A stretch of DNA of 64,000 nt from Rhizoclosmatium globosum (lineage: Eukaryota > Chytridiomycota > Chytridiomycetes > Chytridiales > Chytriomycetaceae). Shown here in pieces: positions 50,746 to 58,653 of this stretch (positions are counted from its first letter, which is position 1; each line of letters opens with the position of its first letter). The DNA is taken from the NCBI GenBank assembly GCA_002104985.1, contig MCGO01000105.1, forward strand, positions 1 through 64,000, in the 5' to 3' direction. A program made the translations under genes and the position numbers. The notes under the pieces are model-generated. The model was not told the origin of the DNA and did not search any database. It saw only the letters and a program-made list of their open reading frames with translations.

Positions 50746-52084
50746 TTAGAAACTCCAAAACGATTTCGTACTGGCCATTAGCTTGGGATTGAGAGGAATA
50801 AATCCCACCGTCTTTGATGCTTTATCGTGCGCAATATATGCTGCCTGATGGAATGGCGATCCAAAACAGCTCATCCCAAGGTCTTCAGCGCCATTCATAA
50901 TGAGGGAATAACACTCCCCTGAATCCAATTTTGAAACCAAAGATGAATATGGAATCGTGTATTCAACTCTTGGTTCGCCGCTTTTTATTGTAAGAGACAA
51001 GACCAACGAGCGACCACCTTCACATGGAATGCGATATTGATTCAACTTCTCGATGTACGTGGCGTTGTACCATCCGTTGATTACGTCTGCTGCATTACGC
51101 GTGAACGTCAACAATGGAGACCCAGAATCAACCAATGTCTTTCCCTGAACTACTTTGGACTCTGACGTGTATGAAAGGAATCTCTCTGTTCTTGTATAGT
51201 CAATTGTTGAAATAATCTGATACAATTTTACGTTAGCTTAGGCTCATGATTGATTGGTTTTTCGTTACCATTTGGGAAGAATCAATGATCCAATGACCAT
51301 ACTGCCCGTTCACAGGAATCACTGGAAACCACTGCAACTCACGCCCAGGAACACCATACTTCTTATCGTTGAAGTACCCAAAGTTCACTTGTCCCTTTGT
51401 TGGATCCGACGGCGATACGTAGATCCCAAATCGTGAAACCGTCAATGCATCCAAGAAATTTGCATTCTCGGCACCTTTGAAAGCCTGCTCAATCTTTGAA
51501 AGAGAGTTGAATCCGAGTCCAAGGACTCCCCGAACTGTGACTTCTCCTGACATTTGGTACACCACACCCACAGGAAAATTGGATACCTCTGCACTTCCAA
51601 ACTTGATAGAAGTCTTGTATATAGCGTAATCAACGCTTATTTTATCGCGCTGCCCGTATATTGTTTTGGCCGTCTTGCCAGTAGAGTTAAACTTGGTTGG
51701 GGTTACTGTAATGGACCCAGCTTCGTTTGGCTCACAAGCTCCATCTTTTGCGTCTTGGACGGAGCTGTGGCATGTTGATCCGGTGACCCAAGTGTCAGAT
51801 GATCCAGTGTCGAGAATTACTTTGGTTGGTGTTTTGCTGCCTCCAACGTACAAGTCCGCATAGAGGTAGCTGTGGTCGTTTCCCTTGCAAAGCGCATCCA
51901 GACAGAGTTCTCCATCGGAGGCTTGGCTGGCAAGGCGAGAGAGGGTGCCTACGTGTTCTGTGGTTCGGATTTGTCTGCTAAGATTGATGTCGAATCGAAG
52001 CGCTGTGTCGGCTGGAGTTGGTGCTGCCGCTGTCGTGCGAGGTATCGAGGCAGCAACAAGTGTAATGAGAGGAAGTACATGCAT
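50746..52084 (-). CDS. Secreted pepsin-type aspartic protease (A1 family)
   Basis: Exons 51269-52084 and 50746-51216, phase 0, 428 residues; ATG at 52084 (the frame opens with TTG at 52090). A signal peptide (LPLITLVAASIPRTTAA) is followed by a propeptide of about 45 residues. The first active site is VILDTGSSDTWV, the flap region contains the usual Tyr (VDYAIYKTSI), and the second active site is TLVDSGSPLL. Between them GVLGLGFNSLS is conserved. The C-terminus lacks a GPI signal, so the enzyme is likely released or vacuolar. Disulfide cysteines are in the usual places near LCLDALC and SCFGSP. It lies between the intact methyltransferase and a decayed copy of its 3' end. Confidence 0.9.
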
Positions 52085-52194
52085 TTTCAAGATAGATTTC
52101 AGGATAGGGCGTAACAGCTGTGGCTATGTGATTTGTTGAACATCAATATGCTATTGCCGAACACCAAATGTCCCTTTATAAAATGATAATTTAG

Positions 52195-52775: not shown

Positions 52776-53144
52776 GCTGGATAGTTTTGAAACCGTTTTG
52801 GAGAGAAGGAGGTTGGATGTTGGTGGGTTGTTGGTTGCCATCACCAAATCACGAATCATCCAAAGTTCCAAACAATTGATCCGAATAGTTCACACTCATT
52901 TTAATGCTTTCGTTACAACAAAATTGTGAGTTCAGCAACGATGAGTCGCATTCAAGACTTTGTTCATTAATTGTGGGCGAAGTTGACGAGTACTCCCATA
53001 ATTAGAAACCTAAACTGATTCAAGGATTACTCCTACTTTGAACAATGCTAAATATTTACAAAACGTGAATGAATAACAAGTGTTGAATACTTCCCCAATT
53101 CTTCACCCAACATCAACAACCACACCCCCAGAAAACAAAACGGC
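52776..53144. other. Intergenic between tRNA genes, nothing recognised
   Basis: AT-rich; short frames only. Confidence 0.4.
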
Positions 53145-53218
53145 TGCCTTCTACCAGATTTGAACTGGTGGCCTCCTGCTTACTAGGCAGGCGATCTGAC
53201 CAACTGAGCTAAGAAGGC
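53145..53218 (-). tRNA. tRNA-Thr(AGT)
   Basis: Minus-strand cloverleaf with acceptor GCCTTCT/AGAAGGC and anticodon loop CTAGTAA. One base in the D loop differs from the other copies (GATCTGACC against GATCTAACC on the plus strand). Confidence 0.95.
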
Positions 53219-53492
53219 AGTTGTTTATAATAGTTGATAATAGCTCTATAACATACATTTTAGTTCAGAATCTCCGGAATAACAGTTTTGAAAGAACATG
53301 ATGAGAGAGTAATTATCAATAATTGCCCGGCGCTGTCTGCGTCATTTGTTTATTTAAGGGAAATCTGACCAAAATCAATCAAAATACGCACCAACAGAAT
53401 TCCTTTCCATATCAAAGGATATTAATTCCTTTATTGGTTCCATTCTTTCTTCTATGAAAAGACAAAGCTCTTGCTGCAACCGATCAGACCTC

Positions 53493-55672
53493 TCAGCGAT
53501 TACTTCCCGCATTCAACCGTCTACTACTCCTAACCACTTTCTCCTCAATTTTTGGCGCAATTTTGTTCACAGTTTTCCGTCTCTTGGCGGCATACGTATC
53601 TCCGGTCAAGAACCTTTCAAACGTATACCCATCTTTAGCAGAAATGTCAGAGTCAAGGCCAGGACGTGACAAGACGGGCGATTCATCAGGGGTTGTTTCT
53701 TGCTGTCTCAGTCTTCTGCTCGTCCAGGCTGGTTGCTTGAATTCAATCACTAAACGTGCAGGAACGTGTGTTTTCCTTCTGTTGACATTTACACCTGCGT
53801 TCTCTTTTTGTTTCTCGACAGAAACGCAGTCTTCTTCTGAGGACGACACGTATTCACATTCAGAGATATCTGATTCGTCTAATGAGGCGTTAGAAACCTC
53901 GGGTTCTGGTGATTCGTCGGGTGTAAAGTATTGCTGTCGTTGCCGAATGCTACTTCTTTCATCCCTGCTCAAATTGATAGAATGGACCTTCAGTTGTGTT
54001 CTTATTTTACATTCTGTCTCTTCATCTGCAGACGATGACACGTATTCACATTCCGAAAGTTCGGATTCAGATTCGAGTGTTATTGGCCGCCTCTCATCTT
54101 CGATAACAACGTCCCTCCATAGATTTTTCTGCACGATTACATTGCTTTGTTCAACATTGCTTCTCGGTGATGGATTGAAAACTACTTCAACATCCTTCTC
54201 AACTTCCGATTCCAACAGGTCAGAATCAGCTCCTGAGACACTTGGAACATATGTGTAGATCATTGATGATGTGCCATGATGTTCATCTTCCTCGGATGAA
54301 GCATAGTATTCACATTCAGACATATCAGAGTCAACCATGATAGAGATATTCAAGAAGGACATAGTCGGCACTGGTAATTCATGTGTCATACGTCTTTTGC
54401 TTATTGCTCCTTCATCCTCTGTTGTCACGTCTTTCTGAATCTCCGAATTTTCTAACGAGACTACAAATGAGTTCTCGTCATTCAAGCCGTCCGAATTATA
54501 CCGTGCTTCGTCATTCTCGTTCTCTTCTGCAGATGAAACGTATTCACACGCAGAAATATCAGAGTCAGTCTTTGAGGAATCAAGCCCAGATATTATCGGC
54601 ACTCGCACTTTCCCATGAGTCCTTTCTCGCCTCCTTACCAGTCGGCGATAACGAGACCCACTCTCTTCCTCTTTTACGCGATTCATTAGTTTCTCCAACC
54701 TCTTTACACTGCGCGCGAACGTGGTTCTCTTAAACGGCTCGTTCAAGTCGATACACCCACTATTTTTCGATTCATCCTCAGACGACGAATAGTATTCACA
54801 TTCTGAAAGACCAGAATCAATTGCAGACGAATCTGAAATATCAGAGATTGTGGACGCGTCAGACAGGTATGATGCATCCATGGAGTCTTCATTTTCAGAT
54901 GAAACTACCGGTCCGGATTTAATATGTGATATGAGTTTTTTGCGTTGGAGTATCCGTTGATTTGCGGCTTTCGTTGAACAGATTGGAGTGTGAAAGAGGA
55001 GGATATTGGGAAGTGGAGGGAGGTCGTCGGAGGGGTCTTGGATGGGTGCCTGATAAAGAAACCTTGGAAGTGTAATTGTTGATGATATTGATGCATTTTG
55101 AGTTGTGCTGAAGGTGGGTTGAATCTGAATGAAGTTGTGAGTCGAAGTGACATCGTTTTGAGTGATAGCTCACATTGACAGATCCGCGAACTAATGCTCT
55201 TGATACAATAAACTGCGCTGCTGCTGAAAGTTGTTTGAAACCAGTCAGGTTCTGTTCGTTTTTGATGGTTTCGAGAACTGGATCTGGGACACAAGGCCTG
55301 CGAGAAGGTTACTATTCGATACGGTGCAAGTATATTAAGGGCGAGAGTACGTTACCAGTGATACCACCCAGAAGAAGAGCTGATTACAAGGCCATGTTGA
55401 TTGTAAGTTAAACAATCGAGCTTTCTTCTACAGCCAGTGCACGCCATTACACGAACATTCGCACTTGTATTCGAGAGTGACGGTACAGGCGAAGCGAAAG
55501 AAGGACTGCCAGGGTCCAGACGTTGAACGTCTTCCACTCCAGAACTTGAAAGAGAAGAACTACGTCGAATCCGTTGCCGTTTCTCTGAAGTATTTCGTAT
55601 ATCGGATGCATTTAATTCGAGAGATATTCTCAGTGGACTTCGTTGAACTTGACAAACTGAATATTGTGACAT
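53493..55672 (-). CDS. PARP-type-zinc-finger-like protein with five acidic S-x-CEY repeats
   Basis: Exons 55356-55672, 55174-55297 and 53493-55124 join in phase to 690 residues. Residues 30-75 are Ser-rich and basic. At about residues 76-147 lies a Cys/His cluster (ACTGCRRKLDC, GWYHWPC) followed by NLTGFKQLSAAAQ; the WYHxxC and the 'GF-x-L' helix recall the PARP-type zinc finger, although the C-to-H spacing is shorter (about 23 residues). The rest is disordered and acidic and carries five copies of D/E-S-x-(I/L/M)-S-x-C-E-Y-(V/Y)-(S/A)-S, about 65-90 residues apart (SGLSECEYYSSSEDE, SDISACEYVSSAEEN, SDMSECEYYASSEED, SELSECEYVSSSADE, SDISECEYVSSSEED), and a sixth worn copy (SDISAKDGY). Basic patches (RRLVRRRERTHGK) alternate. 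A nuclear DNA- or protein-binding scaffold is inferred. Confidence 0.7.
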
Positions 55673-55871
55673 GGTTCAGTGGGTTGGCTTCAAAGTGGAA
55701 AAAAACAACAATCAGATATATTGCCAAAAATAGCTGACGCTATTTCTTTCATGATGGTAGAGTAATGATAAATTGCTGAATTAGAATGAAAACCTGTTTG
55801 GAAAGCTGGACCATTCCACTCCAACTCAATTAACACCATACTGTCCCAACATACTACTCCGGAGCAAAACG

Positions 55872-55945
55872 TGCCTTCTACCAGATTTGAACTGGTGGCC
55901 TCCTGCTTACTAGGCAGGCGATCTAACCAACTGAGCTAAGAAGGC
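55872..55945 (-). tRNA. tRNA-Thr(AGT)
   Basis: Minus-strand copy identical to 19598-19671. The rest of 55673-56110 holds no gene. Confidence 0.95.
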
Positions 55946-56110: not shown

Positions 56111-58653
56111 TCACATATACCCACGACTCTGCTGCGATATCTCCACCCCTCTCACAAAATCCACAACCTCCATAACACCCCTCGTAGCATTCTGTATACT
56201 CCACAACCCAATCCTCTTCAACTGCCGCGTGCGTTCCCGTTCATCCAACACAAGCAACGTCAACGCGCGTCCAATCTCCTCCGCAACAACATCCACAACG
56301 CCCGCGGAGAAAAAGTCCCATGATCCGTTGAAGTTTTCGAGCGGGAGACGGGTTTCGAATGTTATGGGGATACGGACGCGGTGGGCGTTCATGTATCCGA
56401 CGATGGGCCGGATGAGGGCGTTTGACATGTATCCGATTTCGGGGGTGGAGAGGGGGACGGAGGCGCGGAGGTCGTTTAGGGAGATGGCCCAGTGCATGAA
56501 GAGGAGTTGTGGGGCGCCTGATTTGTTGATTTGGGGTTTTTGGGAGGCGAGTTTTTCTGTGGGGGGTGGGGAGGTGGTTGTGTAGCGGGAGGGGTATTCG
56601 CGGGGGCTGTAGGTTTCGATTATGGCTTTTGATTCTTCGGTTTCGGCGTCGGTTTCAATGTATTGGGTTCCGGTTCGTGGCGAGGTTACAGTTTTGGGTT
56701 CGGTGAGTTGATGTATTTTCTGGCGGAGGGCTGTTTGGTATTCGTCTTGGTAATCAGAGGTACCAGTTTTCTTTGTTGTGACAGGATCGTTGGAGTGGTG
56801 TCGCTCCTTAATCTTTTCGAGTTTATCCATGGCAATATATTTGACGCCTTCGAATTCTTGACGGATTTGGGCAAAGAGCTGGTCGGTCGGGAGAGGTGTT
56901 GATTTGGGGAAGAGGAAGTGGAAGTCAATATCAATCGTTCCAGATGTGATCCATGAGAAGGGGCCAGTGACGCCTGTGGAAATGTGATCGATTGGCAAGT
57001 TGTTGATTTTCAAATGGGACTGCATATGATGGGTTAGCTGTCCGATACAGAACGAGTCAAATAACAAACCATCTCAGCTCCCAAATCCTTTCCAGCTCCT
57101 TCATTCGCCATCGCACCAGCAACATTCCCATCCCCAATCGCATCCGCAGCCCCACCAGTCCCCTCATTCTTCCACTTATGCACACTAAACAAACAATTAT
57201 CAAAAGCCCCAACAATACTCTCCGCACACATGACATCATACAAAAGCCACTGCTGCCGAAACCTCTCCAACCGTGCACTATACACACTGACACTAAACGG
57301 CCGAAACTCGTTCGGGTTCTTGATGTCAACGAGAACGTCTTGGACAACAAAGTCAGACATGTCAAAGTCGTATGGAGTTGCTTCGCGGCGGGTGGGGACC
57401 CAGTCTGCGGGCCAGATGATGTGGGAGCGGTCGGCGACGCCGCGGATTCCGGTTAGTTTGCAGGCTTGGACGAGGCCGTGGCCTTGGAGGTAGCGCCAGA
57501 GGGATAGGGATACGTTTACGGATTTGATGCGTCTGATTGAGTTGGTTAGTCTGTAAATTCCATCGATTACGCTCGAAGAAGATCTTAATGTCAGGGCTTC
57601 CTTTGTGTCTCCTCTGAAAAAACACGCTAACTCATGCTCTTTTGCTCATTCTTTCCTCCAAATGCCAGCTTTTTTCATTTCGTGTTATAAAAAGGCGTCA
57701 GCGGAGCTTGCTTAATCCTTATCATTTCAGGACATGGCTCACTGCGCCATAAGTGTTACCAGGATCCCGAATTTCCTAAAACATTCTTTCTGCGATCCAT
57801 TTTCTCGCTCACTCATGATCTCAGCCGATATCAAACTCAACCAAGATCTCACACTTGCATCTTCCATACTCACATATCCCAATACGTCCAATTGACATTC
57901 ACATCATCCGTATTTTGGTTGTACTCGACCCCTTCCTTCCTCCTATTTGGATCATTTGACGTTACCCAAGACTTTGGTAGAAAGAGACTCAGTCCGCCAA
58001 GAACCCTTCGAGCAAGACTCCTATTCAGGCCTTCCGCCTCTTCCCTGCGTTGATCAAGAACCCTCTTTCGCCATGTATCAGCGTTACACACGATATGCAA
58101 GTTTGCAAGATGGATAGTGCCTTCCTTCCAGTTTGGCAAGATCGCCGAGTCGCAGTGCACTTCGTAGCCCGTAAGATGCGATAGATATGCAGAGATAGCA
58201 TTTGACAGGTACTCTACGGGCGCCATCTGAATAAGCACATGATACCTAATAAAAACGCCCCCATATTTAACACACGCAAATACCTTGATCCGAGCCCAAC
58301 ACAACCAGTGACACCGCACTCGTCGTTCCCGCAACTGCAAACAATATCGCCGCCACCGAAAACCAGCTAAACAGCGCCGCAACATCGTCGCCCTTCCACC
58401 GTCGATTCGCCTGAGTTCCAACAAGAACAAATCGCAGCCGAAGTCGCAATCGCCGCAGAAACGACGTCTCATTTGAAAGACTTTCGCTGAGAGACGGCGC
58501 AAAGGCCGATTTGCCTTCCTTTTCTTTGGTTGACGAAAAGTACTTTCGACTGAGGACCGGCGGTAAACTTGCTTTTGGGGTGGTTCGATGAAGGAGGATT
58601 CGGTGGTGGTGGTGGCGATGAAGGAGGGGCCGCCGGAGGACTTGAGTGAACAT
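56111..58653 (-). CDS. Mdm31/Mdm32-like mitochondrial inner-membrane protein
   Basis: Exons 58276-58653, 57874-58226, 57070-57613 and 56111-57019, phases agree, about 727 residues. ATG 58653 opens a mitochondrial presequence (MFTQVLRRPLLH, His/Arg-rich, ending RKYFSST). A membrane segment follows (AALFSWFSVAAILFAVAGTT). Family motifs are AISAYLSHLTGYEV, FDSAILPNWKEGTI-like DSAILPNWKEGTIHL, VNWTYWDI, VSLSLWRYLQGHGLV, GIRGVADRSHI, NEFRPFSVSVYSARLERFR, QWLLYDVMCAESIVGAFDNC and, near the end, PITFETRLPLENFNGSWD. Mdm31/32 are needed for mitochondrial shape and distribution and lipid supply. A 260-base intron (57614-57873) is long for this window. Confidence 0.88.

Follow-up and report, generated by a model that had tools for sequence, protein, structure and literature searches.

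Two described systems come close to the locus reported here. In S. pombe, Hpz1 (SPBC2A9.07c) combines an N-terminal PARP-type finger with four acidic regions; according to the available part of PMC3435320, it is nuclear, slows S-phase entry and is linked to Rad3/ATR, and several fungal Rad3 (ATR) homologues carry a similar finger and acidic region as a C-terminal extension. In APLF, a histone chaperone of DNA repair, aromatic residues in the acidic tail anchor histones, and in cells no histone binding was left once all four anchors had been altered, as stated in the accessible text of PMC9328677. A literature search joining the PARP-type zinc finger with fungi and acidic, or with Hpz1, found no paper.

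Here we describe a gene of Rhizoclosmatium globosum that lies in a 64,000-nucleotide stretch of contig C8 (the window) and was first proposed from the letters of that stretch alone (the sequence-only reading) as a repeat protein of no described family. As far as our searches go, that description stands for the motif, which is the new part; it does not stand for the overall plan, which is that of Hpz1 and the Rad3 extensions as described in the available part of PMC3435320. The nearest architecture is fission-yeast Hpz1: compared by description, the window protein likewise has an N-terminal PARP-type finger, here scoring below the family cut-off, followed by acidic clusters, and Pfam found no PARP catalytic domain in it. 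It differs from Hpz1, as presented there, in having 690 residues and an ordered S-x-C-E-Y repeat, against 246 residues and four acidic regions. The product is probably a nuclear protein. The likeness to APLF is one of working and not of homology, namely a zinc finger with a flexible acidic segment that would carry aromatic anchors, whereas the fingers of APLF, in the accessible text, are of the PAR-binding (PBZ) kind and its acidic domain is single.

Gene structure and diverged copies

The gene is read from the minus strand in three exons:

53493..55672, minus strand: whole gene, 3 exons, 690 amino acids, ATG at 55672 and stop at 53493, with a GT..AG splice model common to three genome copies
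55356..55672, minus strand: exon 1, N-terminus rich in Ser, then the start of the finger with C78, C81 and H105
55298..55355, minus strand: intron 1, 58 nt, GT..AG, phase 2, splitting the W codon of Y-H-W-P-C; a paralogue has an intron at this position in the same phase
55174..55297, minus strand: exon 2, finger C108 and a GF..L..Q segment
55125..55173, minus strand: intron 2, 49 nt, GT..AG, phase 0, after RGSVN, donor GTGAGC; same position and donor in the paralogue
53493..55124, minus strand: exon 3, linker, five motifs, basic tail and stop (53493-53495)

The limits that the sequence-only reading had given the gene coincide with the ATG and stop of this spliced model. It had also treated the N-terminal exons as part of the repeat gene, and they do fall into one gene model with the repeats: HDU99_008694 of R. 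hyalinum, a partial protein of 590 amino acids on a 4277-base contig (a prediction, not transcript evidence), links exon 2 to exon 3, and with them the later part of the finger to the repeats, as in the window model, and both introns are matched in the paralogue.

Scanning of the genome (56.9 Mb, 420 contigs) revealed three diverged copies, invisible from the window alone, on C8, C46 and C380. These are 90.9-94.1% identical to one another, and in all three the reading frames are open and the introns intact. Their surroundings are collinear over some 20 kb, with long matching pieces 93.5-98.2% identical, and therefore the copies look like diverged haplotypes or homeologues and not like a tandem family. 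HDU99_008694 is 89.5-91.3% identical to the genome copies, about the same distance as separates the copies from each other.

The gene lies between two tRNA-Thr (AGT) genes (53142-53219 and 55871-55945, minus strand), which are matched at collinear places beside the C46 and C380 copies. Four tRNA-Thr genes occur in the window, and a further match lies near 66762 of C8. The protein-coding neighbours, both on the minus strand, are an aspartyl protease (51233-52123) and an MDM31/MDM32 mitochondrial morphology protein (56111-57645).

Relatives were sought in a protein collection with three queries. With the exon-3 frame, the R. hyalinum protein was the sole relative among the matches listed (at least 7991 candidates scored); it was also found alone with residues 60-160 (78 candidates, E up to 1) and with residues 546-590 (3 candidates, E up to 10). 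These searches rely on shared five-letter words, so divergent orthologues may escape them. NCBIfam gave no match for HDU99_008694 or the exon-3 frame, and a literature search found no paper on the Rhizoclosmatium hyalinum genome.

A shortened finger and its paralogue

PARP-type fingers are spaced C-x2-C-x(about 28-30)-H-x2-C, and their C-terminal half carries W-x-H-x-x-C and G-F-x-x-L. The window finger is C-x2-C-x23-H-x2-C, in which 23 residues, not the usual 28-30, separate the second Cys from the His. Its presumptive zinc ligands (C78, C81, H105 and C108) are all present in the three genome copies; the R. hyalinum record begins after the CxxC. The sequence-only reading had described a WYHxxC finger, which holds for the window copy; the W has been replaced by R in the other two genome copies and in R. 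hyalinum (3 of 4), and GF has become GL in one copy.

Taken from the window sequence, a PARP-type reading of the finger is weak. The zf-PARP profile (PF00645) scores 24.1 bits in the window copy (E 6e-5), 17.0 in C46 and 15.3 in C380, every one below the cut-off of 39.3, so that membership by score fails; the match covers profile positions 39-86 or 44-86. The exact reverse and three shuffles of the window domain gave no zf-PARP match. For the C380 copy, Herpes UL24 (E 0.028) does slightly better than zf-PARP (E 0.035). Two hhalign comparisons with other zf-PARP domains from this genome failed to support the assignment (probabilities of 1.9 and 0.7%), and a PDB sequence search returned no PARP-finger match for the N-terminal 157 residues, the paralogue finger or HDU99_008694.

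Several other assignments were set aside. Of a Zn2Cys6 cluster, only C-x2-C-x5-C is present (by eye). In the exon-2 frame, a glycosyltransferase 64 Pfam match was below cut-off and disappeared after splicing, and a Herpes UL24 match, also below cut-off, was treated as chance.

A stronger case for PARP-type origin comes from the genome search with the finger, which found a paralogue at two places:

C122:51250-51587: paralogue of the finger
C401:168282-168538: paralogue of the finger

Its spliced finger, C-x2-C-x30-H-x2-C, is 37% identical to that of the window and reaches 30.6 (E 5.6e-7) and 27.6 bits against zf-PARP over positions 4-86 of 87, both scores still under the cut-off. Both intron positions and phases of the window gene recur, together with one extra intron inside the finger (in C122; in C401 by eye). 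The better score and the common introns make it likely that the window finger descends from a PARP-type finger, despite its own failed score. The two genes also share an acidic downstream frame; the paralogue differs in its fuller x30 finger, its additional intron and the lack of CEY in that putative frame (L046 643-1413, minus strand). The same frame contains an AT-hook-like KRGRGRPRK and a DSGVSESDS stretch that is like motif 1 without C-E-Y.

A search for the family turned up zf-PARP at seven further places in the genome, one of them above cut-off, and the domain context of three was examined. At L016:1498-2604 (minus strand) zf-PARP is combined with RING, and at L017:1123-2595 (plus strand) a sub-threshold zf-PARP occurs with BRCT and a sub-threshold DnaJ match. 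Genes of this genome were met in one to three diverged copies: at least three for the window gene, at least two each for the finger paralogue and the DnaJ/BRCT gene, and at least one for the RING/zf-PARP gene. Such copy counts suggest that the strain is heterozygous, hybrid or polyploid and that its assembly has partly collapsed.

Conservation of the repeated motif

The 690-residue protein holds five copies of [DE]-S-x-[ILM]-S-x-C-E-Y-[VYFL]-[SA]-S, at motif-to-motif distances of 64-88 residues:

54784..54806, minus strand: motif 1, core S-E-C-E-Y-Y-S-S, C at residue 256
54532..54554, minus strand: motif 2, core S-A-C-E-Y-V-S-S, C at residue 340
54298..54320, minus strand: motif 3, core S-E-C-E-Y-Y-A-S, C at residue 418
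54034..54056, minus strand: motif 4, core S-E-C-E-Y-V-S-S, C at residue 506
53842..53864, minus strand: motif 5, core S-E-C-E-Y-V-S-S, C at residue 570

The translation bears out the five motifs and the worn sixth that had been read from the DNA, the latter being LDSDISAKDGY near residues 638-647 (by alignment). The count is above shuffle expectation: two or more S-x-CEY occurred in 0 of 20,000 shuffles of residues 147-690, encoded by exon 3. The pattern first proposed was right except in the residue after the Tyr, which is V, Y, F or L and not just V or Y.

The motif is nearly private to this gene in this genome. Among 17 genome DNA matches to coded S-x-C-E-Y-x-[SA]-S, 15 fall in the three copies of the gene, and a control with the pattern written backwards matched nowhere in the genome. 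The two remaining matches (C41 and C101, both S-T-C-E-Y-S-S-S in the same bases) were taken as chance; at C41 the peptide is absent from the listed frames of at least 80 residues.

All four known copies, the three in the genome and that of R. hyalinum, have five motifs; the sequence-only reading had named repeat number in relatives as a check. With the Cys as position 0, that Cys, the Ser at -5, -2 and +5, the Glu at +1 and the Tyr at +2 are unchanged in 120 of 120 cells (five motifs in four copies). Position -3 is I, L or M, -1 is E, A or Q and +3 is V, Y, F or L, and the serines at +4 and +6 are each replaced by Ala in one motif. Because the relatives found are all within Rhizoclosmatium, this conservation is shown at short range only.

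Serine codons differ among the five motifs, so the peptide has been kept although the DNA diverged. The codons for C-E-Y (TGT GAA TAC) are identical in all five window motifs, though neighbouring Ser codons differ; these nine bases are one base off in one motif of C46 and in one of C380. Outside the motifs, Tyr is encoded by TAT eight times and by TAC four times.

We compared substitution patterns in the three copy pairs by the Nei-Gojobori method. Within the motifs (5 x 16 codons) dN/dS is 0.05-0.12, a low value owed partly to many synonymous changes in few sites, against 0.37-0.87 in the rest of residues 237-590. Nonsynonymous and synonymous changes number 2/9, 3/6 and 3/7 in the motifs versus 12/9, 39/16 and 43/14 in that remainder (Fisher P 0.061, 0.053 and 0.008, in tests that share copies and are not independent). 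Elsewhere dN/dS is 0.43-1.05 in the finger region (few changes), 0.58-1.07 in the N-terminus, 0.31-0.73 in the linker and 0.13-0.26 in the tail (591-690). Across the four proteins, when gapped columns are excluded, variation is seen in 8 of the 80 motif columns, compared with 59 of the 281 remaining ones in residues 237-600 (P 0.033); when five 16-residue windows were placed at random 20,000 times, 809 placements showed as little variation. Together these comparisons give modest grounds for holding that, inside the repeat region, the motif peptide has changed less than the spacers. Other parts of the protein are conserved too: variation is as low in the pre-repeat linker 147-236 (8 of 90 columns variable) and in the second finger part 99-146 (5 of 48).

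The repeat unit extends beyond the motif. Among the ten spacer pairs tested, the likeness of 1-2 and of 4-5 was each reached by 3 of 500 shuffles, which indicates that duplication did happen; the corresponding counts were 17 for 2-3, 27 for 1-3, 43 for 2-5 and at least 205 for the other five pairs. Between the motifs of the window copy (frame 55124-53493) we also saw a second recurring element with basic residues, T-H and V-P, in the forms RRERTHGKVRVP, KRRMTHELPVP and NRRKTHVP, which precede motifs 2 and 3 and follow motif 5.

Proposed docking peptides and competing readings

We tentatively favour a lineage-specific relative of the Hpz1 type in which a finger would tether a five-fold array of phospho-tunable docking peptides. 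The shortened PARP-type CCHC finger would bind zinc through its four ligands and hold the protein to nucleic acid, presumably DNA. In the long and probably unstructured tail, a unit of 64-88 residues would have been tandemly duplicated and then have diverged, with selection retaining one 16-residue peptide per unit, S-x-x-S-x-C-E-Y-hydrophobic-x-S-x-x-[DE]. Each peptide would act as an independent low-affinity docking site, its Tyr and hydrophobic neighbour serving as the anchor in a pocket on some nuclear partner of positive charge. Charge would be tuned by the acidic residues and, after CK2 phosphorylation, by the invariant serines, and avidity would come from the five copies.

For the partner our first guess, a doubtful one, would be histones, since APLF, whose acidic tail holds aromatic anchors, offers an analogy. 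The motif does place an invariant Tyr in an acidic setting, as histone binding would call for. Counting against histones, an acidic residue is more usual in a histone anchor at the place where the motif has Cys. It is conceivable, with about as much doubt, that the motif represents a new class of nuclear linear motif, borne five times by a single finger-tethered chain, in which a three-serine ladder of CK2-type spacing round C-E-Y would set the number of partners at a DNA site.

Phosphorylation could instead be the basis of binding itself. CK2 (or CK1) would then modify S(-5), S(-2) and S(+5), a phosphoserine reader (BRCT or other) would bind, and C-E-Y would provide specificity. None of the three serines varies across the 20 instances, S(-2) and S(+5) match S-x-x-[DE] in all 20, and S(-5) precedes S(-2) by three residues, the spacing of hierarchical priming. 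The match alone is weak, however: in the window copy 26 of the 61 serines of residues 237-600 also satisfy this minimal pattern, and for that reason CK2 phosphorylation of the invariant serines is plausible, no more, and the CK2-like context first noted for the motifs holds at the level of consensus only. The aromatic residue follows S(-2) by four residues, versus three in BRCT ligands, and the core offers no Thr for FHA domains. On balance we consider this reading unlikely.

Less likely again is an acidic activation domain or charge-driven tail, in which composition would count and not exact residues, and the repeats would be duplicated acidic sequence. The tail is indeed acidic and Ser-rich, and structure prediction is unconfident along the repeats (for HDU99_008694, mean pLDDT 31.8 and 582 of 590 residues below 50, a result of little weight as the input alignment had two distinct proteins). 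The duplication evident from spacers 1-2 and 4-5, and the paralogue's putative downstream frame, acidic without CEY, are likewise in its favour; but composition alone would not hold C, E and Y in every motif of every copy while the spacers change.

The same invariance makes it improbable that the motifs are SUMO-interacting motifs (SIMs), with C-E-Y-[VYFL] followed by S-S-S-E-E-D as a CK2-tuned acidic flank and five copies binding SUMO chains. Spacing and acidic serine flank resemble phospho-SIMs, and the residue after Y is always hydrophobic, but SIM cores are usually Val, Ile or Leu, freely interchanging; here the core is C-E-Y-[VYFL], not rich in these residues, and Cys and Tyr are unchanged in 20 of 20 instances.

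A fast-drifting, lineage-specific gene whose repeats have no specific function, and whose motifs seem kept as the copies are close, is more improbable still. It would fit the 89.5-94.1% identity of the four copies, the word-based protein searches, which found no relative beyond Rhizoclosmatium, the motif columns that vary as little as the pre-repeat linker, and the high dN/dS of finger and spacers. Against drift, the three genome copies retain open frames and intact introns, changes in the motifs are mostly synonymous, and serine codons have diverged between motifs with the residues unchanged. Lastly, sensing of metal or redox by five repeated cysteines, pairing or binding metal between motifs, has the invariance of the Cys (20 of 20) behind it and is hardly credible with a single Cys per motif, 64-88 residues apart.

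Should the array of finger-tethered docking peptides prove correct, it would bear on the wider Hpz1 type, for whose acidic tails the available part of PMC3435320 gives no ligand. The five-fold kept peptide, about 16 residues long, would be a bait of defined sequence with which to look for one, and the five motifs would form a natural series for measuring avidity. The finding would gain in importance if the motif is retained in distant chytrids.
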